DNA of 64,000 nt. Source: Pelomonas caseinilytica. GTDB taxonomy: Bacteria > Pseudomonadota > Gammaproteobacteria > Burkholderiales > Burkholderiaceae_C. Position numbers and translations under genes: made by a program. Below the pieces are notes generated by a model. It searched no databases. It worked only from the letters and a program-made list of their open reading frames with translations, and had not been told where the DNA came from. Below, piece by piece: positions 33,905 through 60,767 of the stretch. The stretch spans positions 62,001 to 126,000 of the forward strand of contig NZ_JAJTWT010000002.1 of the NCBI RefSeq assembly GCF_021353235.1. Reading direction: 5' to 3'. Every line of letters starts with the position of its first letter. The stretch's first letter is position 1.

Positions 33905-36900
33905 ATGGCAACCGTCATCCCGTTCATTCCCGTTTCGAAGATTCCCGGCCTGTCCACGACGACGATCCGGGACTTCACGACCGAAGACTGGGCGGCCTTC
34001 AGCACGGACCAGCTGATTGCGCTGACGACGGCCCAGGCCGCAGTCATCACGTCGACCGGGCTGTCCGTGCTGAACAGCGACCAGATCCGCGCCTTCCAGA
34101 CCGAGGACCTGCGCTCCATCACGACGAGTTCCCTCCAGGGCCTGACCTCGGACCAGGTCGGCGCCCTGACCACCGACCAGCTGCAGGGGATGAGCAGCGG
34201 CCAGGTGGCGGCGCTGTCGGGCAACCAGCTCAAGGGCTTCAACGCGGCCGACATGGTCGCCCTGACCTCTGGCCAGGTCAGCGCCCTGACGACGGCCCAG
34301 GTGTCCAGCCTCTCGACCGACCAGCTCTCGGCGCTCGAGAACGCCGACATGAAGTTCCTGTCGACGACGGCGCTGCGCTCCCTGTCCAACGCCCAGCTCG
34401 ACGGGCTGACCAGCGACCAGCTCCGCGCCCTGACCACCGGCCAGGTCGCCGCCCTGACCACCGCGCAGATCAACGGCCTGAACACCGACGACCTGAACGT
34501 CTTCACCACCGACCAGGTCGCCAAGCTGACGACCGGCCAGGTCGCCGCGCTGAGCGCCAACCAGGTCGGCCACCTGGCCACCGACAGCCTCAACGCCATG
34601 GGCTCGGCCCAGTTCAGCGTGCTGACCTCCGCCCAGGTCGGCGCCCTGACGACCGACCAGCTGTCCAAGATGGAGACGGCCGACCTGCGCGCCGTCACCA
34701 CCGGCGCCCTCGCCGGCCTGAGCTCCGACCAGGTCAACAGCCTGACCACCGACGAGGTGGCCAACCTCGGCACCAACCAGATCGCCGCCCTCTCGGCCAA
34801 CCAGGTCAAGGGTCTGACCGCCGGCGACATGACCGCCCTGTCGTCTGCCCAGGTGGCCGTGCTCGGCTCCGCCCAGGCCCAGGCCCTGAGCACCGACCAG
34901 CTCTCGGCCATCGACGCCGCCGACATGAAGGCGCTGAGCACGGTCGCTCTGCGTTCCCTGTCCAACGCCCAGCTCGACGGCCTGACCAGCGACCAGCTCC
35001 GCGCCCTGTCCACGGGTCAGATCAATGCCCTGACCACGGCGCAGATCAACAACCTGAATTCCGATGACCTGAACGTCCTGACGAGCGACCAGTTCGCCAA
35101 GCTCGGCACGGCCCAGGTCGCGGCGCTCAGCGCCAACCAGCTCAGCCACCTGGCCAGCGACAGCCTGAACGCGATGACGTCCGCGCAGTTCGGCGTCATG
35201 ACCTCCACCCAGATCGGCGCGCTGACGACCGACCAGCTCAGCAAGATGGAGACGGCCGACCTGCGCGCCGTCACCACCGGTGCCCTCGCCGGCCTGAGCT
35301 CCGACCAGATCAACAGCCTGACCACCGACGAGGTGGCCAACCTCGGCACCAACCAGATCGCCGCCCTGAGCGCCAACCAGGTCAAGGGCCTGACCGCCGG
35401 CGACATGACGGCTCTCGGCACCGCCCAGGTCGCCGTGCTGACCACCGCCCAGGTGCAGGCGCTCAACACCGACCAGCTCTCGGCCATCGACGCCGCCGAC
35501 ATGAAGGCGCTGTCCACCAACGCGCTGCGGGCGATGTCCAACGCCCAGCTCGACGGCCTGACCAGCGACCAACTGCGCGCCCTGAGCACCGGCCAGGTCA
35601 ATGCCCTGACCACCGCCCAGATCAACGGCCTGAACACCGACGACCTCAATGTGCTGACCAGCGACCAGTTCGCCAAGCTCAGCACCGGCCAGGTCGCGGC
35701 CCTCAGCGCCAACCAGCTCAGCCACCTGGCGACGGACAGCCTGAACGCCATGGGTTCGGCCCAGTTCGCGGCCCTGACCTCCACCCAGTTCGGCGCGCTG
35801 ACCACCGACCAGCTCAGCAAGATGGAGACGGCCGACCTGCGCGCCGTCACCACCGGCGCCATGGCCGGCCTGAGCTCCGACCAGATCAACGGCCTGACGA
35901 CCGACGAGGTCGCCAACCTGACGACGGCCCAGGTGGCCGCCCTCTCGGCCAACCAGGTCAAGGGCCTGACGGCCGGCGACATGACGGCCCTCGGCACCGC
36001 CCAGGTCGCCGTGCTGACCACCGCCCAGGTGCAAGCGCTGAGCACCGACCAGCTCTCCGCCATCGACAACGGCGACATGAAGGCCCTGAGCACGACGGCC
36101 CTGCGCGCCCTGTCCAATGCCCAGCTCGACGGCCTCACCAGCGACCAACTGCGCTCACTGACCTCAACCCAGGTCAACGCCTTGACCACGGCCCAGGTCA
36201 ACGCGATGAACACCGATGACCTGAACAGCTTCACCAGCGACCAGTTCAACAAGCTGTCCACCAGCCAGGTTGGCGCCCTGACCGCCAACCAGCTCAGCCA
36301 CCTCGCCACCGACAACCTCAACGCGATGGGCTCGGCCCAATTCGCGGCCCTGTCGTCCTCGCAGTTCGGCTCGCTCACGACCGACCAGCTCTCCAAGATG
36401 GAGACGGCCGACCTGCGCGCCGTCACCACCGGCGCCCTCGCCGGCCTCACCAGCGACCAGGTCAACAGCCTGACCACCGACGAGGTCGCCAACCTCGGCA
36501 CCGCCCAGGTGGCGGCCCTCTCCGCCAACCAGGTCAAGGGCCTGACGGCCGGCGACCTGTCGGCCCTGTCCTCGGCCCAAGTCGGCGTGCTGACCTCCGC
36601 CCAGGTCGCTGCGCTGTCGACCGACCAGATCGCCGCCATCGACGCCGCCGACATGAAGGCCTTGTCGACCGCGGCCATCCGTGCCCTGTCCGTGGCCCAG
36701 CTCGACGCGCTGACCAGCGACCAGCTGCGTGCCCTGACCAGCACCCAGCTCAACGCCATGACGACGGCACCCCAGATCGCCGGCATCACGACCGACGACC
36801 TCAACGTGCTGACGACGGACCAGATGGCCCGGCTGTCCACCGCCCAGGTCCAGGCCCTCACGGCCAGCCAGCTCGGCAACCTCGGCACCGACAACCTCAA

Positions 36901-42900: not shown

Positions 42901-44230
42901 GGCCATGACGTCCGGCCAGGTCGCCGTGCTGACGACGGCCCAGGTCCAGGCCCTGTCGACCGACCAGATCTCGGCCATCGATTCCGATGACCTGCGCGGC
43001 CTGTCGACGGCCTCCATCCAGGCCATCACCGACGTGCAGCTCGGCGCGCTGACGACCGACCAGTTGACCGGCCTGGGAGGACGCGTCTCGGTGCTGACGA
43101 CCAGCCAGATCGCCCACCTGGCGACCGACGACCTGAACAGCTTCACCGCGTCGCAGTTCGCCGTCATGACCTCCAACCAGGTGCACGCCTTCACCAACGC
43201 CCAGGTGGCCGCGCTGGAGACCGACGACCTGCGCGCCCTGAACACGGCCAACATCGCCGCGATGACGAATGCGCAGGTCCAGGCCATCACGACCGACCAG
43301 TTCGTGACGCTGAAGGACACGCAGATCACCGCGCTGACGACGGCCCAGGCCGCGGCGCTGACGACGGATCAGGTCCACGCCTTCACGACCGACCAGATCC
43401 ACGGGCTGGAGACGCGCGACATCGCTGCGATGAGCATGAGCCAGCTCGACGCCCTGACCGGCTCGGCCATCGGCGAGATGACCTCGGCCCAGCTGAACGC
43501 CTACTTCGCGGTCACCCCGATCGCGCTGGACCTGGACGGCCATGGCGTCAACACGCTGTCCGCCTCCAACGGCGTCAACTTCGACCTGCTGGGCACCGGC
43601 CAGACCCACAAGGTCGGCTGGGTCGCCGGCGGCGACGGCTTGCTGGTGATGGACCGCAACCACGACGGCGTCATCAACAACGGCAACGAGCTGTTCGGCA
43701 TGGGCACCGTCCTGGCCAACGGCAAGCATGCCAAGGACGGCTACGTCGCCCTGGCCGAGCAGGACACCAACCACGACGGCAAGCTCGACCTGCACGACGC
43801 CAACTGGAAGGACCTCAAGGTCTGGGTGGACGGCAACCACGACGGCAAGACCGACGCGGGCGAGCTGAAGTCGCTGGAGGACCTGGGCATCGTCTCGATG
43901 GACCTCAACGCGACCAAGGGCGGTGGCACCGACAACGGCAACCTCGTGGGGCTGATCTCCAGCTACACGACGACCGACGGCGCCCAGCACCAGATGGCCG
44001 ACGTGTGGTTCACCAAGGACGTGCAGCCGCAGCAGCCCGAGCATGCCCACACGACGCCGGTCAGCCTGACCGACGTGCTCGCGGCACCGACGGCCCCGCT
44101 GCTGGCGGCCGAACATGTGGACCTGTCCAAGGCCGCGGCCCTGCACTCGCCCGACGCCCACCTCGCGGCCATCGACCGCAAGCTGGCCGAGGACGACGAG
44201 CAGCGCCGCAACAACGCCGGCTTGATCTGA
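33905..44230 (+). CDS. Giant octapeptide-repeat exoprotein with a C-terminal calcium-loop domain
   Basis: 3441 residues. Residues 1-19 are unique, with no signal peptide. Residues about 20 to 3200 consist almost entirely of octads of the form x-Q-V/L-x-x-L-T/S-T/S, about 400 of them, arranged in sixteen higher-order units of 24 octads. The chain is rich in Thr, Ser, Ala, Leu, Gln and Asp; I noticed no cysteine. The last ~240 residues hold a domain opening IALDLDGHGVNTL with three EF-hand-like loops (DRNHDGVINNGNE, DTNHDGKLD, DGNHDGKTDAGE), the kind seen at the end of type I secreted RTX-like proteins. It has no leader peptide, so export would be by a C-terminal signal. A type I system and a GT41 transferase lie at 53798-60767. 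Likely surface layer, sheath or adhesin; the fold of the octads is unknown. Similar Thr-Gln-rich repeats occur in some proteobacterial genomes under uninformative names. Confidence 0.85.
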   Translation: MATVIPFIPVSKIPGLSTTTIRDFTTEDWAAFSTDQLIALTTAQAAVITSTGLSVLNSDQIRAFQTEDLRSITTSSLQGLTSDQVGALTTDQLQGMSSGQVAALSGNQLKGFNAADMVALTSGQVSALTTAQVSSLSTDQLSALENADMKFLSTTALRSLSNAQLDGLTSDQLRALTTGQVAALTTAQINGLNTDDLNVFTTDQVAKLTTGQVAALSANQVGHLATDSLNAMGSAQFSVLTSAQVGALTTDQLSKMETADLRAVTTGALAGLSSDQVNSLTTDEVANLGTNQIAALSANQVKGLTAGDMTALSSAQVAVLGSAQAQALSTDQLSAIDAADMKALSTVALRSLSNAQLDGLTSDQLRALSTGQINALTTAQINNLNSDDLNVLTSDQFAKLGTAQVAALSANQLSHLASDSLNAMTSAQFGVMTSTQIGALTTDQLSKMETADLRAVTTGALAGLSSDQINSLTTDEVANLGTNQIAALSANQVKGLTAGDMTALGTAQVAVLTTAQVQALNTDQLSAIDAADMKALSTNALRAMSNAQLDGLTSDQLRALSTGQVNALTTAQINGLNTDDLNVLTSDQFAKLSTGQVAALSANQLSHLATDSLNAMGSAQFAALTSTQFGALTTDQLSKMETADLRAVTTGAMAGLSSDQINGLTTDEVANLTTAQVAALSANQVKGLTAGDMTALGTAQVAVLTTAQVQALSTDQLSAIDNGDMKALSTTALRALSNAQLDGLTSDQLRSLTSTQVNALTTAQVNAMNTDDLNSFTSDQFNKLSTSQVGALTANQLSHLATDNLNAMGSAQFAALSSSQFGSLTTDQLSKMETADLRAVTTGALAGLTSDQVNSLTTDEVANLGTAQVAALSANQVKGLTAGDLSALSSAQVGVLTSAQVAALSTDQIAAIDAADMKALSTAAIRALSVAQLDALTSDQLRALTSTQLNAMTTAPQIAGITTDDLNVLTTDQMARLSTAQVQALTASQLGNLGTDNLNALTTGQFAVLSSTQLGALTTDQLSKLETADLRSVTTGALSALSSDKINALTSDEVAGLTTAQVASLSANQVKGLTAGDMTALGTAQVGVLTTAQVQALSTDQLVGIETGDMKSLSTNALRALSNAQLDGLTSDQLRALTTGQVNALTTAQINGLNTDDLNVLTTDQFAKLATGQVAALSANQLSHLATDSLNAMGSAQFGVLTSTQFGALTTDQLSKMETADLRAVTTGALAGLSSDQVNSLTTDEVANLTTAQVAALSANQVKGLTAGDMTALGTAQVAVLTSAQVQALSTDQLSAIDAGDMKSLTTTALRAMSNAQLDGLTSDQLRALSTGQVNALTTAQINGLNTDDLNVLTTDQFAKLATGQVAALSANQLSHLATDSLNAMGSSQFAVLTSTQFGALTTDQLSKMETADLRAVTTGALAGLTSDQVNSLTTDEVANLTTAQVAALSANQVKGLTAGDMTALGTAQVAVLTTAQVQALNTDQLSAIDASDMKALTTNALRAMSNAQLDGLTSDQLRALSTGQVNALTTAQINGLNTDDLNVLTTDQFAKLATGQVAALSANQLSHLATDNLNAMGTAQFGVLTSTQFGALTTDQLSKMETADLRAVTTTAMAGLSSDQINSLTTDEVANLTTAQIAKLSAAQVAGLTAGDMTALGTAQVAVLTSAQAQALSTDQLSAIDASDMKSLTTTALRALSNAQLDGLTSDQLRALTTGQVNALTTAQINGLNTDDLNVLTSDQFAKLATGQVAALSANQLSHLATDNLNAMGTAQFAVMSSTQFGALTTDQLSKMETADLRAVTTGAMAGLSSDQINGLTTDEVANLTTAQVATLSANQVKGLTAGDMTALGTAQVAVLTTAQVQALNTDQLSAIDASDMKSLTTNALRAMSNAQLDGLTSDQLRALSTGQVNALTTAQINGLNTDDLNVLTTDQFAKLATGQVAALSATQLSHLATDSLNAMGTAQFGVLTSTQFGALTTDQLSKMETADLRAVTTGALAGLSSDQVNSLTTDEVAGLGTNQVAALSANQVKGLTAGDMTALGTAQVAVLTTAQVQALSTDQLSAIDASDMKALTTTALRAMSNAQLDGLTSDQLRALSTGQVNALTTAQINGLNTDDLNVLTSDQFAKLATGQVAALSANQLSHLATDNLNAMGTAQFAVMSSTQFGALTTDQLSKMETADLRAVTTGAMAGLSSDQINGLTTDEVANLTTAQVATLSANQVKGLTAGDMTALGTAQVAVLTSAQVQALSTDQLSAIDAGDMKSLTTTALRAMSNAQLDGLTSDQLRALSTGQVNALTTAQINGLNTDDLNVLTSDQFAKLATGQVAALSANQLSHLATDNLNAMGSAQFSVLTSAQFGSLTTDQLSKMETADLRAVTTTAMAGLSSDQINGLTTDEVANLTTAQVAALSANQVKGLTAGDMTALGTAQVAVLTSAQAQALSTDQLSAIDAGDMKALSTTALRALSNAQLDGLTSDQLRALSTGQVNALTTAQINGLNTDDLNVLTTDQFAKLATGQVAALSASQLSHLATDSLNAMGSSQFGVLTSTQFGALTTDQLSKMETADLRAVTTGALAGLSSDQVNSLTTDEVANLTTAQVAALSANQVKGLTAGDMTALGSAQVGVLTTAQVQALGTDQLAAIDAADMKALSTNALRALSNAQLDGLTSDQLRALSTGQVNALTTAQINGLNTDDLNVLTTDQFAKLATGQVAALSASQLSHLATDSLNAMGSSQFGVLTSTQFGALTTDQLSKMETADLRAVTTGALAGLSSDQVNSLTTDEVANLTTAQVAALSANQVKGLTAGDMTALGSAQVGTLGSAQVQALSTDQLSAIDAADMKALSTTSLRALSNAQIDGLTSDQLQALTTAQVNALTTAQLSAMNTDDLNAFTTDQFAKLATGQVAALTVTQMGHLETDDLNAMGSAQFAVLSSTQIGALVTDQLHALETADLRAVQAASLGLLSSDQIASLTTDHVAALTTAQVQALSAGQIHGLSAADMTAMTSGQVAVLTTAQVQALSTDQISAIDSDDLRGLSTASIQAITDVQLGALTTDQLTGLGGRVSVLTTSQIAHLATDDLNSFTASQFAVMTSNQVHAFTNAQVAALETDDLRALNTANIAAMTNAQVQAITTDQFVTLKDTQITALTTAQAAALTTDQVHAFTTDQIHGLETRDIAAMSMSQLDALTGSAIGEMTSAQLNAYFAVTPIALDLDGHGVNTLSASNGVNFDLLGTGQTHKVGWVAGGDGLLVMDRNHDGVINNGNELFGMGTVLANGKHAKDGYVALAEQDTNHDGKLDLHDANWKDLKVWVDGNHDGKTDAGELKSLEDLGIVSMDLNATKGGGTDNGNLVGLISSYTTTDGAQHQMADVWFTKDVQPQQPEHAHTTPVSLTDVLAAPTAPLLAAEHVDLSKAAALHSPDAHLAAIDRKLAEDDEQRRNNAGLI
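34085..43303 (+). repeat. Tandem array of 576-bp units (24 codon-octads each) inside the giant gene
   Basis: The anchor codon in DQLSKMET recurs at 34661, 35237, 35813, 36389, 36968, 37544, 38120, 38696, 39272, 39848, 40424, 41000, 41576, 42152 and 42728. All intervals are exactly 576 bp except one of 579, caused by a single extra codon (a Pro in TTAPQI near 36770). A diverged unit precedes at 34085 and the last unit decays after about 43070. Smaller 24-bp octads continue on both sides (about 33962 to 43506). Confidence 0.97.
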
Positions 44231-44239
44231 TCTCCTGAC

Positions 44240-44529: not shown

Positions 44530-44530
44530 A

Positions 44531-46552: not shown

Positions 46553-46684
46553 GATGTTGCGGCAAGCATAGGCGAGGCTCGTCGCCCACACGGAGGGAAA
46601 AAGGGCGAACAATGAATCTCAGTTCCGGATTAGCGACGCCAGGCAGCGGCCGCATACTGCGACAGATAGGCTCAGGAGCGCACC

Positions 46685-49448: not shown

Positions 49449-50120
49449 TCACTCCCCCCACTTCCCCAAATACCGCTTGTAGTTTTCCACCCAGGCATTC
49501 GACCCGAACCCGCCCTCGCTCTGGTGCGTGATCGCCACCGGCCACGTCGCCAGCCGCAACCCCGCCGCCCGGGCCGAGCGGCAGAAGTCCATGTCGTAGA
49601 AGTGGAAGTCGAAGCGCTCATCGAAGCCCACCTGCCGGGCGCGCAGCACGTCGCGCCGCGCCGCGAGCAGCACGCCGTCGAGCAGCTCGCACTCCGCCGG
49701 CACCGGGCCGAAGGCCGAGATCTGGCCGAAGGGCGACGGGCCGTGGGACACCACGCCGCTGAGGTTGGCACGCTCGTCCCACTCGAACTTGAGGCTGGGG
49801 AAGGCCCAGGACGGCTGGCCCGGGACGCGGCGCTTGTTGCCGGCCACGCCGATGACGTCGAAGGCATGCACCGCCGCCATGACGTGCTCGAAGAAGAAGA
49901 AGTCGTCCAGCCAGACGTCGTCGTGGATGAAGACCAGCACGGGCGAGGCGTCGGCCGCGGCGATGCGCTCGTTGTAGAGGGCCGGCAGGCCGCGACTGTT
50001 CTCGAAGAAGACGCGGGGCTTGAGCCGGTCGTCGTGGGCCATGCGGCGCAGGGACAGGCCCAGGGCCGAGCGGCCCCAGAACTCGTCGGCCGTCATCCGC
50101 GTGGCACAGACGAGATCCAT
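49449..50120 (-). CDS. Glycosyltransferase (GT2-like, DxD)
   Basis: 223 residues. FIHDDVWLDDFFFF contains the acidic metal motif, and LLDGVLLAARRDVL with FYDMDFCRSARAAG are typical of the C-terminal part of GT2/galactosyltransferase-like enzymes. It is short, lacking the first strand of a full GT2, but related short proteins exist. The ATG overlaps the stop of the next gene upstream by one base; it is the last gene of the secretion/glycosylation operon. Confidence 0.75.
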   Translation of the reverse strand: MDLVCATRMTADEFWGRSALGLSLRRMAHDDRLKPRVFFENSRGLPALYNERIAAADASPVLVFIHDDVWLDDFFFFEHVMAAVHAFDVIGVAGNKRRVPGQPSWAFPSLKFEWDERANLSGVVSHGPSPFGQISAFGPVPAECELLDGVLLAARRDVLRARQVGFDERFDFHFYDMDFCRSARAAGLRLATWPVAITHQSEGGFGSNAWVENYKRYLGKWGE

Positions 50121-51100
50121 CACGACGGCGCCCTCGCGACCGGCTCGGCCCCGCAGTAGGCATGCCAGGCAGCGACGTAGGCGGCCTCGGCGGCCTCCGA
50201 GTCGCCCAGCGACAGGGCCAACCGGGCCAGCTCGCACATCGGCGCGTCGCCGGCGTAGTGCTGCAGCACCAGCAGGCCCATGCGGCGGGCCACGTCGGTG
50301 CACTGCGCGGCGTTCAGGTGGCCCAGGCGCTTGCCCGCCACGGCCAGGGCGATCCAGGCCAGCAGGCCGAGCTTGAAGATGCGCCCGGTCGGCTGGGCGG
50401 TGTTCTGCTCGGGGCTGGTGCGGAAATAACCGAGGTGCTCGTTGATGAAGACGACCGGCGCCTGCTGGCTGGCGGCGAGGAAGGTGCCGATGTCCTCCAG
50501 CCCGGTGTAGGCCACGCCGCCGAGACGCGCGCCCAGCAGCACCTCGCGCATGCCGGCGCGCAGCGTGGCGTTGGACAGCTCGCCCAGCCAGTTGTTGACG
50601 CCGGGCACGGTCAGCGAGAACAGCAGGCCAGCGCTGATCGTGGCCATGCGCTGCATCTGCTCGGCCAGCGGCGCCGGGACGGGCAGGCTGGCGATCGGCT
50701 GCCCGGACTCCAGCGCCGTCCAGCGCCGGCTGACGGCGCAGCTCGCCTGCACGAGGCGGTGGGCGCGGGCATGCTGCTCGTAGAAGTGCGGGTAGGGGAT
50801 GTCGTCGTCGAGCTGCAGGTGGAAGAACTCTGTCTCTCCGCGGTAGAGCTGGAGCAGGTTCTTGAAGTTGGCCCAGGCGCCCTGGCGCGGGCCCGGCACG
50901 ACCTCGATGCTCAAGGCCGGGTAGGCGGCGCGGGTGGACGCATTGCCCAGCGCGGCGACGAAGGCCTGGTCGGGGCTGTCGTCCGAGAAGACGACGCGCG
51001 CCGGCGGCAGGGTCTGGCTCTGCAGCGCCAGCAGCAGCTCGCCCAGGTATTTGGGCTTGTAGGCCGGCACCAGGACGGTGACGTCGAAGCGTGCCGTCAT
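50120..51100 (-). CDS. Family 2 glycosyltransferase
   Basis: 326 residues. DVTVLVPAYKPKYLGELLLAL opens the GT-A fold, and the metal site is LQLDDDIPYPHFYEQH near residue 100. The ATG overlaps the stop of the GNAT gene as ATGA. The last ~100 residues are Ala/Leu-rich and helical. The sugar and acceptor are unknown. Confidence 0.85.
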   Translation of the reverse strand: MTARFDVTVLVPAYKPKYLGELLLALQSQTLPPARVVFSDDSPDQAFVAALGNASTRAAYPALSIEVVPGPRQGAWANFKNLLQLYRGETEFFHLQLDDDIPYPHFYEQHARAHRLVQASCAVSRRWTALESGQPIASLPVPAPLAEQMQRMATISAGLLFSLTVPGVNNWLGELSNATLRAGMREVLLGARLGGVAYTGLEDIGTFLAASQQAPVVFINEHLGYFRTSPEQNTAQPTGRIFKLGLLAWIALAVAGKRLGHLNAAQCTDVARRMGLLVLQHYAGDAPMCELARLALSLGDSEAAEAAYVAAWHAYCGAEPVARAPS

Positions 51101-51684
51101 GCCGCCGCTCCGTCGGGCGCGCGGGGCACGACGGTGATGCCGTCGGGCAGGTATTTGCGGTACTTGTCGAACGAGGCGCGGATGGCGTCCTCCGAGATCG
51201 AATAGAACAGGTCCTCGCCGGCCTGGCCGGTGCGCGTGGCGCCGAAGCGCTCGTGGAACTTCCAGACCGACTCGTTGCCCACGCGCACGCTGAAGTGCGA
51301 TGCCGTGAAGCCGAGCTGCAGCGCGTAGGCGTAGACCATCAGCGCCGACTCGACGGCGAAGCCGCTGGGCCGTCCGTCCGCCAGAATCCACGAGCCCCAG
51401 CTGAACGACGCCCCCTGCGGGTCGTAGAGGCGGACGGTGCCATGGCGCGTACCGTCGCGGTCCTCGATGATGAAGTAGACCTGGCTGTCGTCGCGCGCAT
51501 AGGCCTCCAGCCAGGCCCGCTGCGCGGCCACGTCGGGTGAGGTGGCCGAGAGGTAGCGGCCCTTGGCCGGGTCGGTGCGCAGGCCGACGATGAACTCGGC
51601 ATCGTCGGGCCGGGCGTCGCGCATCACGATGTGCTTGCCCAGCACGCGGGCGGGCTTGACGAGGGTGGGGGCGGGCGACGTCAT
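51097..51684 (-). CDS. GNAT-family acetyltransferase of the glycan operon
   Basis: 195 residues resembling ribosomal-protein/amino-sugar GNATs (Acetyltransf_3 group): IVMRDARPDDAEFIVGLRTD at the start, SWILADGRPSGFAVES, then NESVWKFHERFGATRTG near the end. It overlaps both neighbours (one base with the DegT gene, 4 bp with the GT2). PseH/WecD-like amino-sugar acetylation is the contextual guess. Confidence 0.7.
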   Translation of the reverse strand: MTSPAPTLVKPARVLGKHIVMRDARPDDAEFIVGLRTDPAKGRYLSATSPDVAAQRAWLEAYARDDSQVYFIIEDRDGTRHGTVRLYDPQGASFSWGSWILADGRPSGFAVESALMVYAYALQLGFTASHFSVRVGNESVWKFHERFGATRTGQAGEDLFYSISEDAIRASFDKYRKYLPDGITVVPRAPDGAAA

Positions 51685-52778
51685 CAGGCGTGGCGACGCA
51701 CGGCGTCGATGACGGTATCCACCTGGGCGTCCGTCATGCCCGGCCACAGCGGCAGGCTGAGCACCTCGCGGTGGATGGCCTCGGTGATGGGGAAGCGGCC
51801 TTCGCCCAGGCCCAGCTCGGCATAGGCCGGCTGGCGGTGCGGCGGCACGGGATAGTGGATGAGGGTGCCGACGCCCTCCTCGGCCAGCGCGCGCTGCAGC
51901 CGGTCGCGGTCGGGGTGGCGGATGACGAAGAGATGCCAGGCGGGCTCGGCCTGGGCGGGCACGTGGGGCAGGCCGACCGGCGCGCCGGCCAGGCCGTCCA
52001 GCAGCCGGGCGGCGATGCGGCGGCGCTCGGTGGTCAGGGTGTCGAGCTGCGGCAGCTTGGCGGACAGCACCGCCGCCTGCATCTCGTCCAGGCGAGAGTT
52101 CAGGCCCTTGACCTCGTTGTGGTACTTGACCCGCGAGCCGTAGTTGCGCAGCACGCGCACGCGCTCGGCCACGGCGGCATCGTCGGTCGTCAGGCCTCCG
52201 CCGTCGCCCATGGCGCCGAGGTTCTTGCCGGGGTAGAAGCTCCAGGCCGAGGCGTCCGCCAGGCTGCCGACGATGCGGCCGTTCCAGCGCGCGCCATGGG
52301 CCTGGGCGCAGTCGTCCAGCAACTTCAGGCCGTGCTGGCGGGCGATGGCGCCGATGGCGTCCATGTCGGCCGGCTGTCCGTACAGGTGCACGGGCAGGAT
52401 GGCGCGCGTGCGCGGCGTGACGGCGGCGGCGATGCGGGCCGGGTCGAGGTTGTAGGTGCGCGGGTCGGGCTCCACCGGCACGGGCGTCGCCCCGCACTGG
52501 CTGACGGCCAGCCAGGTGGCGATGTAGGTGTTGGCCGGCACGATGACCTCGTCGCCCTCCCCCACGCCGAGGGCGAGCAGGCCCAGGTGCAGCGCGTCCA
52601 GCCCGTTGCCCAGGCCGACGGCATGGCGGCTGCCACAGTAGGCTGCCCACTGCGCCTCGAAGGCTTCAAGCTCCTTGCCGAGGATGAACCAGCCACTGGC
52701 GGCCACGCGGGCCAGTGCGGTGTCGATGGCCTCGCGCGAGGCGGCGTAGGTGGGTTGGAGGTCGAGGAAGGGCAGCAT
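51684..52778 (-). CDS. DegT/DnrJ/EryC1 sugar aminotransferase (FdtB/QdtB-like)
   Basis: 364 residues, PLP-dependent. The PLP lysine is in [15 protein letters not shown] near residue 180, preceded by [11 protein letters not shown]. Strong FdtB/QdtB traits: the opening [11 protein letters not shown] and the position directly after a WxcM-type ketoisomerase. It would aminate C3 of a dTDP-3-keto-6-deoxyhexose. The one-base overlap with the ketoisomerase gene (TGATG) supports a shared pathway. Confidence 0.87.
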
Positions 52779-53734
52779 CAGGTGGGCGCCTTGCCGATGG
52801 CGGCGAGGAATTCGTCGTAGTCGCGGATGTAGTCGGCCGCGTCGTAGGTGTCCGAGGCCAGCACCAGCAGCACGGCGTCGGGCGAGAAGCGGTACTGGAT
52901 GCCCCAGACCATGGGCGGGATGTGCAAGCCCACCTTGGCGCTGTCCAGCCGCAGTTCGTCGCGGTGCCGGCCGTCGTCGAGCACGATGGTGCAGCTGCCC
53001 TTCACGCAGATGAGGAACTGGTGGCAGGCCTTGTGGGCGTGCTCGCCGCGCACCTCCTCGCTCGGCACGTCGTAGACGATGAAGAAGCGCTGCGGCGTGA
53101 ACGGCAGGTGGGCGTCGATCTCGCCGAAGCTCAGGGCCCCGCGCAGGTCGACGATCTTGGGCAGGGTATGCAGGCGCGCGCCGCGCGCCTGCAGCTCGGG
53201 CAGCTGCTCGCCCAGGCGCTGCGCCGAGATGGCGGTGCCGCCGACCTGCACCTCGGGCGTGTCCATGTAGCCGACGATGCGGGCCGGGTTGCCGGCCACG
53301 ATGGCCCGCGGCGGCACGTCGCGCGTGACGACGGCACCGTCGCTGACCAACGCCCCCGGGCCGATGGTGACGCCGGCCCGGATGGTGCAGTTGGCGCCGA
53401 TGCTGGCACCGGCGCGCACGCGGGTCTTGAGGTACTCGGGCGGCTTGCGCTTGCTGCGCGGCGCGGGGTCGTTGCTGAAGGCGGTGTTGGGGCCGACGAT
53501 GACGTCGTCTTCGAGCGTCACGCCGTCCCACAGGTGCACGCCGCTCTTGAGCGTGACCCGGTCGCCGAGGACGACTTCGTTCTCGATGAAGATGTGGTCG
53601 GCGAGGTTGCAGTCGGCCCCGATGCGGGCGCCAGGCAGCACGTGGACGAAGGCCCAGATGCGCGTGCCCGGCCCGATCTGCGTGGACTCCACGAGGGCGT
53701 GCGAGTGCACGAAAGCGCCGCTGCCAACCGTCAT
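52778..53734 (-). CDS. Fused acyltransferase / dTDP-sugar 3,4-ketoisomerase (WxcM-like)
   Basis: 318 residues with two domains. Residues ~1-160 form a left-handed beta-helix acyltransferase with hexapeptide repeats ([45 protein letters not shown]), as in FdtC/QdtC. Residues ~185-318 are a cupin of the FdtA/QdtA type ([18 protein letters not shown], with the paired histidines). Together with the aminotransferase this gives dTDP-3-acetamido-3,6-dideoxyhexose (Fuc3NAc or Qui3NAc). The ATG at 53734 has GGGAG upstream; an ATG 15 bp earlier lacks one. Confidence 0.88.
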
Positions 53735-53797
53735 CGATTCGTCTCCCATGCTGTGTCGGGTTTCAGTATGCCTCGGCCATGCCGCACGAGAGGGGCG

Positions 53798-55210
53798 TCA
53801 GCGCAAGGGTGTCGCGACGCCGCGGCCCATGCTCCAGATGAGGGCCACGATCTGCTGGGCGTCGAACATCGCATTCACATGGGCGACGCGCATGGAGTAG
53901 TAGTCGCCTTCGGCCGCCATCACGTCGAAGAGGGAGCGGCGGCCGAGCTGCTGCCACTGCTGCAGCGTGGAGGCGCGCACGCGGTCGCTGTTGCGCAGGA
54001 TGTCGACGATGCGGCGGGCGCGGTCCAGCGTCGAGGTGCCCACCTCGTGCATCTCCAGCAGGCGGTAGCGCTTGGCCTCGATGGCCTCGTCGCGCTGCAG
54101 CACGGTGGCGCGGTAGCGCTGCACGGCAGCGCTGGCCTGGGCCTGCGCGCCGGGCTGCAGGATGGGGATGGTGACCGAGACGCCGGCACCGATGTCCGTC
54201 GTGCGCGAGTCGCCGGGATGGGGCGTGCGCAGCATGGCGCTGGCGTTGCCGGTGAGGTTCACCGTGGGCTTCTGCCCGGCGATGACCGACTCCGCGAAGC
54301 TGCGCTGCGAGCGCGCCTGCGCCTCGGCCTGGGCGATGTCGGCGCCCATGAGGATGTCGGACTGCATCTGGTCGAGGTCGGGCAGCAGGGACAGCGTGGG
54401 CGTCATGCCGATGCTCGGCGGCAGCGGCTCGCCCACCAGGCGCTTCATGCGCACCTCGGTCTGGCGCAGGGCCGACATGGTCTGCTCCAGCGACAGGTCG
54501 GCCTGCTGTAGGCTCTTCTGCGCCTGCACCAGCTCGCTGGCGCGGCCCCGGTCGGCCTTGGTGATGATCTCCAGCGCATCGACCAGGCAGGCCATCTTGC
54601 GCACATATTGGGTGTAGACCTGGCCCTGCAGCACGTAGCGGCTGCGGTCCAGGGCCAGCGTGACGACGTTCAGCGACAGCTGCTCCTCGGCGCTGCGCTG
54701 GCCTTGCAGGGCGACCTCGGCGAGCTCCTTGCGCCATTCGGTCAGCTTGGCGATGCGGCCGAAGTCCCAGACGGGCATGCCGGCGCTGAGCGTGGCGGTG
54801 AACTGGCCGCCGCGCGCCACGTTGTTGCCGCCGATGGACTGGTTCACGCCATTGGCGCCGATGCTCAGCGTCGCCGTGGGCAGGCCCATGGCGCGCGTCT
54901 CCTCGAGGTCGAAGCGGGCGGCCTCGGCCAGCAGGCGCACGGCGCCCAGCGCCTTGCTGCGCGCCAGCGTCGCGTCGATGAGGGACTGCAGGGCGGCGCG
55001 CGGGTCGCCGCTGGTGGTCTCCAGGGCGCTCATGTCGCGGCCCAGGCGCGACAGGCCGGCATCTTCCTCGTTGCAGCGACCCTGGCTGGGCGCCGCCTCG
55101 GCCACGGGGGCGGGCGGCGGGGCTGCCTTGGGCGCGCGCGCCTGCGCGAGCGCGAGCGGGCCGAGGGCGGCCAGGGCGAAGACGACGAGGGGACGGATGG
55201 GGTACAGCAT
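53798..55210 (-). CDS. TolC-family outer membrane channel of the type I system
   Basis: 470 residues. A signal peptide (PLVVFALAALGPLALAQA) is followed by a Pro/Ala linker and two long-helix repeats typical of TolC-like proteins (for example LDRSRYVLQGQVYTQYV and RDEAIEAKRYRLLEMH). The ATG at 55208-55210 is used; an upstream TTG in the same frame is unlikely. The trimer would span outer membrane and periplasm. It lies 128 bp after the HlyD gene, the largest gap in this operon. Confidence 0.88.
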   Translation of the reverse strand: MLYPIRPLVVFALAALGPLALAQARAPKAAPPPAPVAEAAPSQGRCNEEDAGLSRLGRDMSALETTSGDPRAALQSLIDATLARSKALGAVRLLAEAARFDLEETRAMGLPTATLSIGANGVNQSIGGNNVARGGQFTATLSAGMPVWDFGRIAKLTEWRKELAEVALQGQRSAEEQLSLNVVTLALDRSRYVLQGQVYTQYVRKMACLVDALEIITKADRGRASELVQAQKSLQQADLSLEQTMSALRQTEVRMKRLVGEPLPPSIGMTPTLSLLPDLDQMQSDILMGADIAQAEAQARSQRSFAESVIAGQKPTVNLTGNASAMLRTPHPGDSRTTDIGAGVSVTIPILQPGAQAQASAAVQRYRATVLQRDEAIEAKRYRLLEMHEVGTSTLDRARRIVDILRNSDRVRASTLQQWQQLGRRSLFDVMAAEGDYYSMRVAHVNAMFDAQQIVALIWSMGRGVATPLR

Positions 55211-55338
55211 GGCCCCGTCACTAGACCATCCGAACCCCGCCTCCAAAGCCCCGAAAAGCGGGTCAGCGCCCGCCCTTGTTCAGTGTTGGGCCGGGCGCCA
55301 GGCCGCTCCCGAGCCGGCCCGGCGGGCGACGGGCGCTT

Positions 55339-56541
55339 TCACCGCTCGCGCAGCGCTTCCTGCGACTTCATCATCGGCCGCAGCAGGTAGCTCAGCACCG
55401 AGCGCTCGCCGGTCTTGATCTCGACGACCGAGGTCATGCCGGGGATGACCGGCAGGGGCTCGCCCTTGTACTTGAGGTTGTTGCGCTCGGCCGTGACGAC
55501 GACGCGGTAGTGGCCCTCGCCCGACTTGTCGCCTTCGGTGACGGCGTCGGGGCCGATGTAGGTCACCTTGCCCTCCAGGCCGCCGTAGGTATTGAAGTCG
55601 TAGCCGGCGAGCTTGATCTCGGCCTTCTGACCGAGGCGCACGAAGCCGATGTCCTTGGGCTTGATCCGGGCCTCGACCAGCACCTTGGGCCCGATGGGGG
55701 CGATCTCGAGGATGGGCGCGCCGCTGGCGACGACGCCGCCGATGGTGGCGGCCTTGACGGTCTTGACGACGCCATGCACCGGCGACTTCAGCACCGTGCG
55801 CGTCAGTGCGTCCTGGCGCACCACCATCTGCTCGTCGAGCTGGGCTAGCTCACTCTGCACGCGCACCAGTTCCTGGCTGGCTTCCTGGCGGTAACGCGAC
55901 AGCCGCTCGGCGCGCTGCTGCTGGATCTCGTTGACCTGGCGGTTCAGCCGCATGACCTCGACGTCGCTCATCAAGCCGTGGGAGGCCATGTCCTGGGCCA
56001 GCCTGAGTTCCTTGCTGATCATGCCCAGGCTGCGGTTGATGGCGGCCACCGACTCGTCGAGCAGGCGGCGGCGCGCCTCGAAGGATTCGGCCTCGCCCTG
56101 GGCGTAGCGGCCCTTGGGGTCGACGTCGGCCGGCCACTGGATGGCGCTGCGGCCGTTGGCCTCGGCGGTGAGCCGCGCTGCGGCGGCCTTCAGCGCCAGC
56201 AGCTTGGCCTGGCCTTCGGCCTGCTGGGCCTCGACGCGGGTGGGGTCGAGCGTGGCGAGTTCCTCGCCGGCCTGCACCTCCTGGCCCTCGCGCACCTTCA
56301 TCTCGCGCAGGATGCCGGCGTCCAGGCTGGCGATGACCTGCTCGCGGCCGTCGGGCACGATGCGGCCGTCGCTGCGGGTGATCTCGTCCACCTTGGCCAG
56401 CGCCGACCAGGCGACGGCCACGGCGACGACGGCGCACAGCAGGTACAGGGCCCAGGTCGCCCGCGGCAGCGGCTCGTCGATCTGGGCGGCATGGATGGCG
56501 CTGACGAACAGGCCTTCCTCGCGGGTCAGGGCCTTGCTCAT
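55339..56541 (-). CDS. HlyD-family membrane fusion protein
   Basis: 400 residues, the size of HlyD/LapC adaptors. One transmembrane helix around residues 30-48 (WALYLLCAVVAVAVAWSAL), a lipoyl half-motif (VKVREGQEVQAGEELATLD-like), a coiled-coil region (residues ~110-240), the second lipoyl half near SPVHGVVKTV and a C-terminal beta-barrel. It links the ABC exporter to the TolC-like channel. The ATG overlaps the ABC stop as ATGA. Confidence 0.93.
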   Translation of the reverse strand: MSKALTREEGLFVSAIHAAQIDEPLPRATWALYLLCAVVAVAVAWSALAKVDEITRSDGRIVPDGREQVIASLDAGILREMKVREGQEVQAGEELATLDPTRVEAQQAEGQAKLLALKAAAARLTAEANGRSAIQWPADVDPKGRYAQGEAESFEARRRLLDESVAAINRSLGMISKELRLAQDMASHGLMSDVEVMRLNRQVNEIQQQRAERLSRYRQEASQELVRVQSELAQLDEQMVVRQDALTRTVLKSPVHGVVKTVKAATIGGVVASGAPILEIAPIGPKVLVEARIKPKDIGFVRLGQKAEIKLAGYDFNTYGGLEGKVTYIGPDAVTEGDKSGEGHYRVVVTAERNNLKYKGEPLPVIPGMTSVVEIKTGERSVLSYLLRPMMKSQEALRER

Positions 56542-58910
56542 ACGGAGGCGGAGCGCTGCACGGGCTGGGCCGAGGGATGCAGGTGCACGCCCTCGCCGCC
56601 CGCAGCGTTGGGGGCGGCCGGGCGCACGCCGGACAGCGCCGCCAGCACCTGGTCGCGCGGGCCGTCCATGACGACACGGCCGCCGTCGACGACGACGATG
56701 CGCTGCACCAGCTCCAGCACCGCCGGCCGGTGGGTGACGACGACGAGGGTGGCCGAGCCGGCCGCGTCGCGCAGCTGGCGCAGGAAGGCCATCTCGCTTT
56801 GCGCGTCCATGGAGCTGGTGGGTTCGTCCATCAGCAGGATCTGCGGCTTGGTGACCAGGGCACGGGCCAGGGCGACGAGCTGGCGCTGGCCGCCGGACAG
56901 CAGCTGGCCCATCTCGCCGACGGGCAGGTCCCAGCCCATGGGATGGCCGGCGACGACGCGGTCCAGGCCGGTCAGCTTGGCCACTTCGACGAGGCGGCCG
57001 GCATCGAGGTGGGCACGGCCCATCAGCACGTTGTCGCGCAGCGTGCCGACGAACAGGCGCGGCTCCTGGCTGACGAAGCCCACCCGAGAGCGGAACTCGG
57101 CCGGGTCGACCTGGCGCAGGTCGATGCCGTCCACCTCGACCATGCCTTCGGTCGGCTGGTAGAGGCCGCCGAGCAGCCGCAGGATGGTGGACTTGCCGCT
57201 GCCGATGCGGCCGAGGATGGCCACGCGCTCGCCGGCCTCCAGGCGCAGCGTCACGTTGCGCAGCACCTTGGGCGCCGTGCCCTCGGCGGCGTGCTGGCCG
57301 GCGTGGGGCGCGGCGGCCGGGTAGGCGAAGCCCACGTCGTGCAGGCCGACCTTGCCGGTGATAGTGGACAGCGGCACGTAATTGCGGCTGCTGTCGCGCT
57401 CGACCGGCGCGTTCATCATCTGGTTGAGCGACAGCATGGCCGCGCGGGCGCCCTGGTAGCGGGTGGCCAGGCTGACGAGGCTGCCCAGCGGCGCGATGGC
57501 GCGGCTGGCGAACATCACCGAGCCGATCAGCGCGCCCGACGAGATCACGCCGTCGCGGATCAGGTAGACGCCCCAGACCAGCAGGATGAGGTTGACTGCC
57601 TGCTGCAGGGTGCTGGAGATGTTCATGCTCCAGCTCGACAGGGCGCGGGCAGTCAGCGCCGTGTCGGCCACGATGGCGGTGGTGTGCTCGTAGCGGCGCA
57701 GGAAGCGGCCCTCGGCGCCGGAGGTCTTGAGGTCTTCCAGGCCTTCGAGGGACTCGACCAGGGTGCCGTGCAGGTCGGCCGTCTCCTGCATGTTGGTGCG
57801 CATGGCGCGGCGCAGGGCGCCCTGGATGGCCCAGGACAGGCCCATGATGACCGGCGCGGCCAGCACCAGCACCCAGCCCAGCGGCCCGCCGATCACGAAG
57901 GTCATGCCGATGAAGATGACCAGGAAGGGCAGGTCCGACAGCGCCGACAGCGTGGCCGAGGTGAAGAACTCCCGCACCATCTCCACCTGCGCCAGGTAGT
58001 GGGCATAGGAGCCGGCCGAGGCGGGCTTGTGCTCCATGCGCACGCCCAGGGTCTGGCGGTAGAGCTTGGCGCCGATGACGAGGTCGGCCTTGCGGCCGGC
58101 CAGGTCGATGAGGTGGGAACGCAGCTGGCGGGCGAAGAGGTCGAACAGCAGGGCCACGCCGGCCCCGACGGCCAGGGTCCACAGCGTGACCATAGCCTGG
58201 TGGGGGATGACCTTGTCGTAGATGACGGAGGTGACCAGCCCCGACACCAGCATCAGCACATTGGACAGCAGCGCCGCCAGCATGGACGCCCGGTAGTAGG
58301 GCGTGAAGCGCTTGAGCGTGCCCCACAGCCAGTGCGAGGCCAGGCCCTTGTCGGCCAGCTTGAGCAGGGGCGTCTCGGTACGCGGCTTCTGGGCCGACTC
58401 CAGCGGCGAGACGGCCAGCATGAAGCCGCTGTACTCGGGCTCCAGTTCGGCCGTGGTGGCCGGCACGGCCGCCGCCTCGGGGCCGGGGAAGACCACCTCG
58501 TAGCGGCAGGCGCCCGGCGCCACGGCGGCGGGGTCGTCCAGGCGGCGCACCAGCACGCAGGCGTCGCCGCCGCCGAGCAGCAGCACGGCCGGCAGCAGCA
58601 GGCCGTGGATGTCGTCGATGCGCTTGCGCAGCAGGCCGGCGTTGTAGCCCGCCTCGCGCATGACGCGGATGGCGCCGTCGGGCGTCAGCAGCCCGTCGAC
58701 CGGCGCGCCGGCGCGCAGCGAATCGGGCGAGCGCGGCTTGCCATGGTGGGCGGTCAGCCAGGACAGGGCCTGCAGCAGCGGATCGCCGGCCGGCTGGCTG
58801 GTCAGGTTCTCCAGCGGGTCGGGCGGCGGCGGCGGCTCCCCGTTGGCGGCCAGGCGCAGGCCCGGCGCCTGAGGCTGGCCGTCGAAGAAGGGGTCGTGCT
58901 GGCGCGGCAT
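56538..58910 (-). CDS. Type I secretion ABC transporter (LapB/HlyB-like)
   Basis: 790 residues. An N-terminal C39-like domain (residues ~40-150) has no cysteine at the protease position, so it is a docking (CLD-type) rather than a cleaving domain. Six membrane helices follow (residues ~200-480), then the ATPase with Walker A GRIGSGKST, signature LSGGQRQ and Walker B ILLMDEPTSSMD. Such exporters move large unfolded proteins with C-terminal signals. The start ATG follows directly on the OGT stop codon. Confidence 0.94.
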   Translation of the reverse strand: MPRQHDPFFDGQPQAPGLRLAANGEPPPPPDPLENLTSQPAGDPLLQALSWLTAHHGKPRSPDSLRAGAPVDGLLTPDGAIRVMREAGYNAGLLRKRIDDIHGLLLPAVLLLGGGDACVLVRRLDDPAAVAPGACRYEVVFPGPEAAAVPATTAELEPEYSGFMLAVSPLESAQKPRTETPLLKLADKGLASHWLWGTLKRFTPYYRASMLAALLSNVLMLVSGLVTSVIYDKVIPHQAMVTLWTLAVGAGVALLFDLFARQLRSHLIDLAGRKADLVIGAKLYRQTLGVRMEHKPASAGSYAHYLAQVEMVREFFTSATLSALSDLPFLVIFIGMTFVIGGPLGWVLVLAAPVIMGLSWAIQGALRRAMRTNMQETADLHGTLVESLEGLEDLKTSGAEGRFLRRYEHTTAIVADTALTARALSSWSMNISSTLQQAVNLILLVWGVYLIRDGVISSGALIGSVMFASRAIAPLGSLVSLATRYQGARAAMLSLNQMMNAPVERDSSRNYVPLSTITGKVGLHDVGFAYPAAAPHAGQHAAEGTAPKVLRNVTLRLEAGERVAILGRIGSGKSTILRLLGGLYQPTEGMVEVDGIDLRQVDPAEFRSRVGFVSQEPRLFVGTLRDNVLMGRAHLDAGRLVEVAKLTGLDRVVAGHPMGWDLPVGEMGQLLSGGQRQLVALARALVTKPQILLMDEPTSSMDAQSEMAFLRQLRDAAGSATLVVVTHRPAVLELVQRIVVVDGGRVVMDGPRDQVLAALSGVRPAAPNAAGGEGVHLHPSAQPVQRSASV

Positions 58911-60767
58911 TTAGGCTCTGGCGCGGGCCTCGAGGGCCAGGCGCTCGAACTCGCGCTCTATATCGCGCACCGTGGCCGGAATGTCAAACAGCGGCGAAGC
59001 GCGGCCGTGCTCGGCCAGGTAGCGCTTGTAGGAGGCGATGCGGGCCGGCTGGTTGCCGAGCTGCACGGCGCGCTGCTCGTACTCCTCGAGGCTGGTCGTG
59101 ATCAGGTCGGGCAGGCCGACCGCCGTCAGCAGGCTGCCGGCCATGCGGGAGATGTAGGTGCGACCCGAGCGGGTGAGGATGGGCGTGCCCATCCAGAGGC
59201 AGTCGCTCGCCGTCGTGCCGGCGTTGTAGGGAAAGGTGTCGAGGAAGAGGTCGGCCAGCTGGAAGCGAGCCAGGTAGTCGGCCGGCTGGGCGCGCGGCGC
59301 GAACACCAGGCGCTCGGCGGCGACGCCCTCCTCGGCGGCGACGCGGGTCAGGTTGGCCTGGGCGAAGGGGTTGTCGGCCAGCAGCCACAACACGCTGCCC
59401 GGCACCTGGCGCAGGACGCGCATCCAGCAGCGCCAGACCGGCTCGCTCATCTTGTGGTTGTTGTTGAAGGCGCAGAAGACGAAGCCGTCTTCCGGCAGCC
59501 CGGCCTCGGTGCGCGTGGGCGCCGGGTTGGCGACGCGCTGGCGGTCGCTGACCTGGTAGCAGTGCGGCAGGTAGATGGGCTTCTCGGTGTGATACGGCAG
59601 GGACTCGGGCGGCATCACGTAGCGGTCTGCGATGATCCAGTCCTCCCCCGGGATGGCCGAGGTGGCCGGCAAGCCCAGGTAGCCCACCTGCACCGGCGCG
59701 CCGCGCCACGCCAGGATGCCGGGCCGGGCGCCGCTGGTCAGGCCCTGCAGGTCGACGAGGACGTCGATGCCGGCCTCGGCGATCATCTCCGCGGCGCGGC
59801 GGTCGTTCACGCCGTGCAGCGGGTGGTAGTGGTCGAAGCCGGCCTTGATGCGGGCACGCAACGGCGTGCCGTCCTCGCGGCTCCAGCTGAAGGCGTGGAC
59901 CTCGAACTTCTCGCGGTCGTGCAGCCCGTACAACTCGGCCGTCAGCAGGCCGACGGCGTGCATGTGCAGGTCACCGGAGAGGTAGCCGATGCGGATGCGG
60001 CCCTCGCGCTTGCGGCCCAGGTGCAGCGGCGGCTCGGTGACCTTGGCCACCTTCTCCAGCACGAAGCGCTGGGCGGTGAGCAGTTGCAGGGCGGGGTCGT
60101 CGCTCTCGTCGAGCATGCCCAGCAGCGAGGTGCTCATCAGCAGATGGTTGTGCGTCACCTCGCCGAAAGTCTCGTAGACGGGCCAGGCGCACTGCTTCTG
60201 GCGGATGTGCACGTAGTGCTGGGCGACGTCGCTCTGGCGCGGGTCCAGCTCCAGCGAGCGGCGCATCAGCGCCTCGGCCTCGTCGTAGCGCTTGAGCTGC
60301 TCCAGCAGCCGAGCGGCGTTGTTCAGGGCGTGCAGGCGCAGGCTCAGCGGGTCGGTGCCCACGCCCTCGGGCGCCTCGGCCTCGTAGACGCGGCGCCATT
60401 CGGCCAGGGCCTCTTCGGGGCGGTCCTGGTGCTCCAGCTGGTGGCCCAGGTTCAGCCGCGCCTGGGCGAAGTCCGGCGCCATGGACAGCGCCATGCGGTA
60501 GACGGTCTCGGCATCGCCGTGCCGGCGCTGCTCGCCCAGGATGGCGCCCCAGTTGAAGCAGGCCACATGGCGCAGCGGCGAGGCGGTCGCCGCCACCCAG
60601 GCCTGGTAGACCAGGCACGCGGCGTCGTGGGCGCCGGCCTGCTGCAGGCGCGAGGCCGCCTCCATGGCCTGCGGCAGGGGCCACTGCCCGCTGCGGGCCA
60701 GCGCCAGCCACTGCTCGACGAGGGCGAGCCCTTGGGGCTGGGTGGCGGGGGGCGCTGACATGTCCAT
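58911..60767 (-). CDS. TPR-containing O-GlcNAc-transferase-like protein (GT41)
   Basis: About 618 residues. N-terminal TPR-like helices (residues ~50-220, e.g. RLNLGHQLEHQDRPEEALAE) are followed by a GT41 catalytic part: IRIGYLSGDLHMHAVG, DVLVDLQGLTSGARPG, VQVGYLGLPATSAIPG, FNNNHKMSEPVWRCW and LFLDTFPYNAGTTASDCLW. Bacterial relatives such as HMW1C glycosylate adhesins in the cytoplasm. ATG 60767 is chosen; an in-frame TTG at 60806 is also possible. It is the first gene of the operon, abutting the ABC gene (TAAATG), so glycosylation and export are probably made together. Confidence 0.9.
   Translation of the reverse strand: MDMSAPPATQPQGLALVEQWLALARSGQWPLPQAMEAASRLQQAGAHDAACLVYQAWVAATASPLRHVACFNWGAILGEQRRHGDAETVYRMALSMAPDFAQARLNLGHQLEHQDRPEEALAEWRRVYEAEAPEGVGTDPLSLRLHALNNAARLLEQLKRYDEAEALMRRSLELDPRQSDVAQHYVHIRQKQCAWPVYETFGEVTHNHLLMSTSLLGMLDESDDPALQLLTAQRFVLEKVAKVTEPPLHLGRKREGRIRIGYLSGDLHMHAVGLLTAELYGLHDREKFEVHAFSWSREDGTPLRARIKAGFDHYHPLHGVNDRRAAEMIAEAGIDVLVDLQGLTSGARPGILAWRGAPVQVGYLGLPATSAIPGEDWIIADRYVMPPESLPYHTEKPIYLPHCYQVSDRQRVANPAPTRTEAGLPEDGFVFCAFNNNHKMSEPVWRCWMRVLRQVPGSVLWLLADNPFAQANLTRVAAEEGVAAERLVFAPRAQPADYLARFQLADLFLDTFPYNAGTTASDCLWMGTPILTRSGRTYISRMAGSLLTAVGLPDLITTSLEEYEQRAVQLGNQPARIASYKRYLAEHGRASPLFDIPATVRDIEREFERLALEARARA

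Follow-up and report, generated by a model that had tools for sequence, protein, structure and literature searches.

In Gram-positive bacteria, glycosylation of serine-rich repeat proteins (SRRPs) uses the GtfA/GtfB pair, and HMW1C of the HMW1 adhesin system adds its sugars in the cytoplasm. SRRPs such as GspB and Fap1 are Ser/Thr repeat surface proteins that are glycosylated inside the cell and leave it through a dedicated exporter, the accessory Sec system, as set out in PMC5578698, PMC6973325 and PMC7948813; HMW1C is a GT41-type enzyme glycosylating a high-molecular-weight adhesin (PMC3983070, PMC3012730); and FlmG of Caulobacter, a cytoplasmic protein combining tetratricopeptide repeats (TPR) with a glycosyltransferase, acts on a filament protein, its TPR domain binding the substrate (PMC7591256). 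Here, we compare with these systems a locus of Pelomonas caseinilytica, located in a stretch of 64,000 nucleotides (hereafter the window; contig NZ_JAJTWT010000002.1, positions 62,001 to 126,000, assembly GCF_021353235.1) from a genome of ~6 Mb labelled G000 among the comparison genomes. The window encodes a giant protein made of eight-residue repeats (octads) and, nearby, a TPR-containing GT41 glycosyltransferase next to a type I secretion system. We consider it likely that this GT41 is a dedicated cytoplasmic enzyme that O-glycosylates the octads, and that the modified protein is then exported by the type I route, an arrangement whose function would resemble the SRRP/accessory-Sec pairing; this reading is drawn from sequence comparison.

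The octad protein is 3441 residues long and Ser/Thr-rich (22.5% of residues), as an earlier sequence-only reading of this DNA had described it. Its self-identity is 0.285 at a lag of 8 residues, with 0.079 and 0.101 at the flanking lags of 7 and 9, and reaches 0.71 at lag 192; the octads are thus arranged in a 24-octad super-repeat. The PF20080 (ALTTAQ repeat) profile matches with 2227.6 bits (cut-off 26.4; E 0), and a simple-pattern count finds 383 octads that cover 89% of the octad frame; 72% of them have Ser/Thr at position 2, 79% at position 3 and 96% at one or both. No signal peptide is visible by eye at the N-terminus, again as described earlier. Over ~100 residues, the octads match HeliScrew4 (PDB 9zem; E 1e-16), an eight-residue repeat of solved structure which, from its name and regular sequence, is presumably a designed protein; the fold proposed here for the octads rests on this likeness.

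ARAGORN places a tRNA-Thr antisense inside the octad gene (35866-35959, minus strand), which Rfam does not support and which we reject as probably a false call from repetitive DNA. A minus-strand open reading frame (ORF) of 2205 aa antisense to the octad gene (37892-44509) and a long plus-strand frame antisense to the GT41 and ABC transporter genes (56577-60758) are regarded as shadow ORFs, owed to the periodicity and high GC content of the DNA. Contig G180:C16 (L071-L073) carries an exceptionally long ALTTAQ ORF (9542 residues), with GT41, ABC and HlyD genes after it.

The window GT41 matches the PF13844 profile (E 2e-77) and carries TPR repeats. Two of its residues, H269 and K438 in window numbering, are invariant in 16 of 16 clade GT41s and align with XcOGT, and we take them to be the catalytic His and Lys of the active site. 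The enzyme is best described as a predicted O-glycosyltransferase acting on Ser/Thr. The NCBIfam NGTferase profile for HMW1C-type N-glycosyltransferases scores 18.4 bits vs a cut-off of 1000, and N-glycosylation at sequons was rejected, the octad protein having 10 sequons in 3441 residues. In a careful tree of 55 GT41 rows, 18 GT41s from octad genomes form one clade (support 100/100), outside which stand 27 comparison rows (the best loci of 25 order-scan genomes, a second copy of G218 and the second GT41 of the window's own genome) and ten rows from octad genomes, i.e., those of G131, G187 and G096 and a second type from the group f87. Support for the octad-associated clade by SH-aLRT is 100 in a quick tree of 134 rows, and again 100 with nine GT41s of the group f91 inside it. 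When named genomes were scanned with the clade alignment, at least 79 loci were obtained, and the best 79 were taken; all join the clade in a quick tree, although, since they were chosen by similarity to it, this membership is no independent proof, and what counts independently is the presence of octad genes in those genomes. The nearest GT41 among named records is that of Pelomonas sp. Root405 (86%). Hosts include strain-named isolates of Roseateles, Duganella, Massilia and Pelomonas, and the best 79 also contain records named Thermodesulfobacteriota, Acidobacteriota, Verrucomicrobiota and Chlorobiota, names that may be wrong where they belong to metagenome-assembled genomes (MAGs).

The octad-associated clade is divided at the HTT motif of OGT enzymes (near residue 515 of the window GT41): one half has GTT there, the other has HTT. 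GTT was read in 75 of the 79 named rows (four unread) whether or not WxcM lies near, with a scan pattern that itself required H or G, and a His-to-Gly change as a link to the sugar donor was rejected on these grounds. Two f87 genomes, G289 and G348, show an expansion to 26 and 23 GT41 matches.

Next, we examined how octad proteins and GT41 genes are distributed. Of 250 genomes of the order, 11 contain PF20080, ten of them above the cut-off: six of these (G000, G058, G129, G131, G180, G187) carry a GT41 gene on the octad contig, at a distance of 0.4-15 kb, and in the other four (G096, G166, G193, G245) the contig ends within the octad ORF. The order of G618 has PF20080 in 10 of 199 genomes, seven of them repeat-rich, and in six of the seven (G632, G679, G682, G743, G744, G788) a GT41 gene directly adjoins the octad gene; the seventh, G618, has no GT41 match in its genome, and none was found in G729, G755 and G797, which have 1-2 repeats each. 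A scan of the phylum found PF20080 in 28 of 398 genomes, and GT41 was then searched in 27 of these plus G193 and G245. Matches were obtained in 19 of the 29, i.e., in all 16 f87 genomes, in G598 and G579, and a distant one in G193; the ten genomes without a match are G618, G245, three f91 genomes with 4-5 PF20080 matches and five with 1-5 weak ones. The GT41 gene lies ≤6 kb from the octad gene in all seven f87 stretches fetched and adjoins it in G598 and G579. Among the best 79 named loci, 30 have octad runs inside the locus, and PF20080 was found in the genomes of 35/36 and 9/13 of the remaining 49, bringing the total to 74 of 79, compared to one of the 25 genomes (G131) behind the non-clade GT41 rows, the window's own genome aside (Fisher p 1e-17, relatedness uncorrected). 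The sequence-only reading had paired the octad protein with the GT41, and had named as contrary evidence an operon found consistently in genomes lacking octad proteins; the 74 octad genomes show the reverse, and the comparison supports the view that octad protein and clade GT41 belong together. As a side observation, both the PF20080 and the PF13844 searches match the control genome of Caulobacter vibrioides.

We then used the family f91, in which genomes with and without GT41 both occur, to look for a mark of the enzyme on the octads themselves. PF20080 is present in 19 of 121 f91 genomes, 11 of which have a GT41 gene beside the octad gene; the nine of these GT41s that were treed all fall in the clade, and a second GT41 of G863 falls outside. 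No GT41 match was found in G618, G876, G905 and G945, and only a distant, unlinked one in G943; G880, G912 and G927 (no GT41 match; 2-6 PF20080 matches; no octad ORF by pattern in the G880 stretch) were left out. Reading octads from one or two stretches per genome, we found Ser/Thr at position 3 in a mean of 75% of octads with GT41 (11 genomes) vs 42% without (four genomes), with complete separation of the per-genome values (Mann-Whitney p 0.0015). The neighboring positions do not differ: 82 vs 77% at position 2 (p 0.23) and 22 vs 20% at position 4 (p 0.75), and a pattern leaving positions 2-4 free gives the same outcome. G943, whose place in the rpoB tree is inside the group of GT41 genomes, is likewise low at position 3, with 38%. 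Across the listed octad ORFs of ≥30 octads, Ser/Thr at position 3 or 4 ranges from 65 to 100%, except for G618, the lowest, at 41%.

The linkage to a type I exporter is more uneven. In the window, the minus-strand order is GT41, ABC (ATP-binding cassette) transporter, HlyD adaptor, outer-membrane channel (OEP), WxcM, DegT, GNAT and two glycosyltransferase genes, so that every component named in the sequence-only reading is there; the label "LapB-type" did not hold for the ABC transporter, which NCBIfam assigns to the LssB type, above the TIGR03375 cut-off. All three parts of a type I system are thus present, the channel by its Pfam match and below the TIGR01844 cut-off. In the Roseateles/Rubrivivax/Derxia group (23 named rows), 22 of 23 loci have ABC and HlyD genes after the GT41 gene, the contig of the 23rd ending in the GT41 gene, and 17 of the 22 also have an OEP gene; the octad gene lies 10-16 kb away in G798, G807 and G826, ~21 kb in G811 and ~500 kb in G806. 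Overall, ABC and HlyD were found within the covered stretch of 31 of the best 79 loci and of 24 of the 47 loci of ≥17 kb, and in f87 both directly adjoin the octad gene in six of seven stretches. Three control stretches around other GT41s (20, 11 and 20 kb), few as they are, contain no such pair.

The C-terminal part of the octad protein adds to this picture. Residues 3205-3372 match the self-processing module of FrpC (6sjw, E 3e-32, and E 5e-34 in a further search; 6sjx, E 2e-31), and the earlier claim of a calcium-loop C-terminus therefore stands as regards a calcium module, which is of FrpC type; RTX nonapeptides (Gly/Asp-rich calcium repeats) are absent by eye, no RTX family is among the Pfam/NCBIfam matches of the protein, and an RTX C-terminus was rejected. 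Octad proteins of several lineages lack the module. In 12 of 12 Roseateles/Rubrivivax-group octad proteins with a readable C-terminus, the last two residues are Leu-Ile, Leu-Leu or Trp-Ile, preceded by a short acidic stretch, an ending seen by eye in no other listed C-terminus (L204 ends in Leu-Leu, and many are cut by contig ends). This tail is a candidate type I secretion signal, and common descent would also explain it.

Taken together, these observations suggest the following sequence of events. The TPR-GT41 enzyme would recognize the octad protein in the cytoplasm and add sugar to octad Ser/Thr, mainly to the second residue of each Ser/Thr pair (position 3, and perhaps position 4 in some lineages). 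In the Roseateles lineage, the LssB-type ABC/HlyD/OEP system of the same operon would then export the glycosylated chain, C-terminal end first. Outside the cell, the calcium module would fold and the octads would stack, forming a long helical rod with sugars at regular intervals, or a mucin-like matrix. The WxcM, DegT, GNAT and additional glycosyltransferase genes would vary the glycan without being part of the core. Specifically, an FdtA domain fused to a hexapeptide acyltransferase, together with DegT, points to a dTDP-amino-sugar pathway of the WxcM type, which is how we understand these genes. The amino-sugar pathway claimed for the system is thus present in the window, and as a core part it was rejected: WxcM and DegT (≥45%) accompany 13 of the best 79 loci (four in the Roseateles group, nine in Oxalobacteraceae), and no match to WxcM, DegT, GNAT or the first glycosyltransferase-like gene was found at the same locus of Pelomonas Root405, nor in G058. 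These genes are an accessory glycan module.

Several observations weigh against glycosylation of the octads by the clade GT41 followed by type I export. GT41 homologues are common as such, occurring in 125 of 250 order genomes at E 1e-40, of which the comparison tree samples only 26; the clade does not include the GT41s of G096 or those near the octad genes of G131 and G187; five of the 79 clade-GT41 genomes (L198, L201, L216, L227, L238), all MAG records, show no octad protein; and octad arrays occur in the GT41-less genomes G618, G876, G905 and G945, which means that octads can exist independently of the enzyme. As for position 3, the rpoB tree places the GT41-less genomes outside the clade of GT41 genomes, which leaves two independent contrasts, one from the deep split and one from G943; each has the expected sign, but together they are far from significant in this relatedness-aware form (sign test p 0.5), and the octads come from only one or two stretches per f91 genome. 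Ser/Thr at position 3 or 4 amounts to 74% in G945a, from a GT41-less genome, overlapping the GT41 group, and Ser/Thr at position 3 to 89% of 38 octads in G245, a genome 91% complete in which no GT41 was found. Finally, 48 of the 79 loci lack an ABC and HlyD pair in the covered stretch, including 23 of the 47 loci of ≥17 kb, and none was found in the f91 and G618-order stretches. The proposal that octads are periodic O-glycosylation sites hence keeps the drop in position-3 Ser/Thr where GT41 is missing, at the level of two contrasts short of significance, and the dedicated exporter holds as a GT41-linked system in Roseateles/Rubrivivax relatives, where it is constant, and in some others, not everywhere.

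Part of this evidence would fit a different role of the enzyme: GT41 and octad genes may simply be co-inherited in one surface island, with the GT41 modifying another protein, e.g., flagellin as FlmG does, and the octad Ser/Thr serving as helix caps. TPR-glycosyltransferase enzymes are known flagellin O-glycosyltransferases (PMC7591256), position-2 Ser/Thr is high with and without GT41, as expected for a structural role, and octad arrays exist in GT41-less genomes. However, co-inheritance would have to account for co-distribution and adjacency across several classes and records named as other phyla, and for a change confined to octad position 3, and we regard it as unlikely. We hold similarly little expectation that the octad protein is a glycosylated scaffold inside the cell or periplasm, its type I neighbor exporting something else. 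Such a scaffold would explain the lack of a visible signal peptide, the many loci without an exporter pair, and the lineages whose octad proteins have no calcium module; it sits poorly with a C-terminal module of the kind found in type I secreted proteins, with the tail common to the lineage that has the operon, and with the exporter genes placed directly beside the octad gene in six of seven f87 stretches.

By far the least probable alternative is a clip-and-link adhesin like FrpC, whose module would cleave itself and cross-link the giant chain to neighboring proteins: similar as the modules are, the bond cut by FrpC is an Asp-Pro where its module begins, and the reaction passes through an anhydride of that Asp (PMC7078468); all 27 module starts that the 80 collected octad ORFs yielded have Thr (22) or Ser (5) ahead of the Pro, on which ground FrpC-type self-cleavage was rejected. 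With the Asp replaced throughout, the module may have been kept as a calcium-folding end without the Asp-Pro chemistry, or with a different one.

Beyond glycosylation before type I export as such, the octad proteins could represent a widespread, undescribed class of bacterial mucins, giant and helical, with sugar placed at nearly every octad (hundreds per chain) by the dedicated TPR-GT41 enzyme, type I export and a lineage-specific variety of amino sugars, i.e., a Gram-negative counterpart of SRRP/accessory Sec, a broader proposal that we put forward tentatively and find slightly more doubtful than convincing.

The genes of the locus are listed in the table below. The operon has gaps of -34 to +92 bases between genes (with the chosen starts) and is convergent with the octad gene, so a shared transcript is impossible. 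Between the two lie three plus-strand genes (the DXD sugar-transferase, the methyltransferase-like protein and the GT2 glycosyltransferase), a gene without assignment and the GSCFA gene. At the other end of the window (55-833), a tRNA Asp-Glu-Ala cluster occurs twice in tandem, both copies with equal covariance scores.

Table. Features of the octad locus, in window coordinates.
Feature	Coordinates	Strand	Basis or remark
Giant octad protein (ALTTAQ repeat, PF20080), 3441 aa	33905..44230	+	114 PF20080 stretches; period 8 in 192-residue super-repeat
FrpC-type calcium module, residues 3205-3372	43517..44020	+	Match to 6sjw/6sjx; Thr-Pro at start in place of Asp-Pro
C-terminal tail with short acidic stretch before the final Leu-Ile, candidate type I secretion signal	44021..44227	+	Common to Roseateles/Rubrivivax-group octad proteins
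TPR and GT41 (OGT-type) glycosyltransferase, 618 aa, octad-associated clade	58911..60767	-	PF13844 profile with TPR; tree
Type I secretion ABC transporter, LssB type	56538..58910	-	TIGR03375 763.9 bits, cut-off 693.1
HlyD-family periplasmic adaptor	55339..56571	-	TIGR01843 313.4 bits, cut-off 208.65
TolC/OEP-family outer-membrane channel	53798..55246	-	PF02321 60.6 bits, cut-off 22; below TIGR01844 cut-off
Hexapeptide acyltransferase fused to FdtA 3,4-ketoisomerase (WxcM type), putative accessory sugar pathway	52778..53749	-	
DegT/DnrJ/EryC1 aminotransferase, putative accessory sugar pathway	51684..52781	-	
GNAT acetyltransferase	51097..51687	-	
Glycosyltransferase-like protein	50120..51100	-	No Pfam/NCBIfam match; GT-A look by eye
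Glycosyltransferase (PF13712)	49449..50126	-	
GT2 glycosyltransferase	48014..48805	+	
Methyltransferase-like protein	47320..48006	+	Below Pfam cut-offs
DXD sugar-transferase (PF04488)	46685..47326	+	
Protein without Pfam or NCBIfam match	45740..46612	-	Beside GSCFA also in Pelomonas Root405
GSCFA-family protein, adjoins octad gene	44704..45813	-	

A literature search that left most subscription journals and all bioRxiv preprints outside its scope returned no paper mentioning ALTTAQ or PF20080, none on HeliScrew, and none on a secreted glycosylated octad-repeat/GT41 system. The octads belong to PF20080, for which Pfam names the repeat only. If the proposed glycosylation and export are correct, they would assign a role both to this repeat family and to one clade of OGT-like enzymes in bacteria, and would define a natural pair of enzyme and substrate in which the acceptor site is regular and predictable. 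It would then become testable how TPR-OGT enzymes recognize long substrates, and whether type I secretion carries heavily glycosylated chains.

Each of the described systems shares a part of this architecture. HeliScrew4 has an eight-residue repeat like the octads, with mostly Pro at octad position 3. Proteins with the FrpC self-processing module have the calcium module in common with the octad protein, which carries Thr/Ser-Pro for Asp-Pro and octads for RTX nonapeptides. HMW1C acts N-linked at sequons on an adhesin exported by two-partner secretion, whereas the window enzyme is OGT-like and its putative substrate has 10 sequons. The substrate of FlmG is flagellin, exported by the flagellar apparatus. 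SRRPs depend on SecA2/SecY2, whereas the octad system combines a GT41, type I genes, Gram-negative hosts and an unrelated repeat, the likeness being one of function only. Given this different exporter and different substrate, we file the octad system under neither SRRP/accessory Sec nor FlmG.

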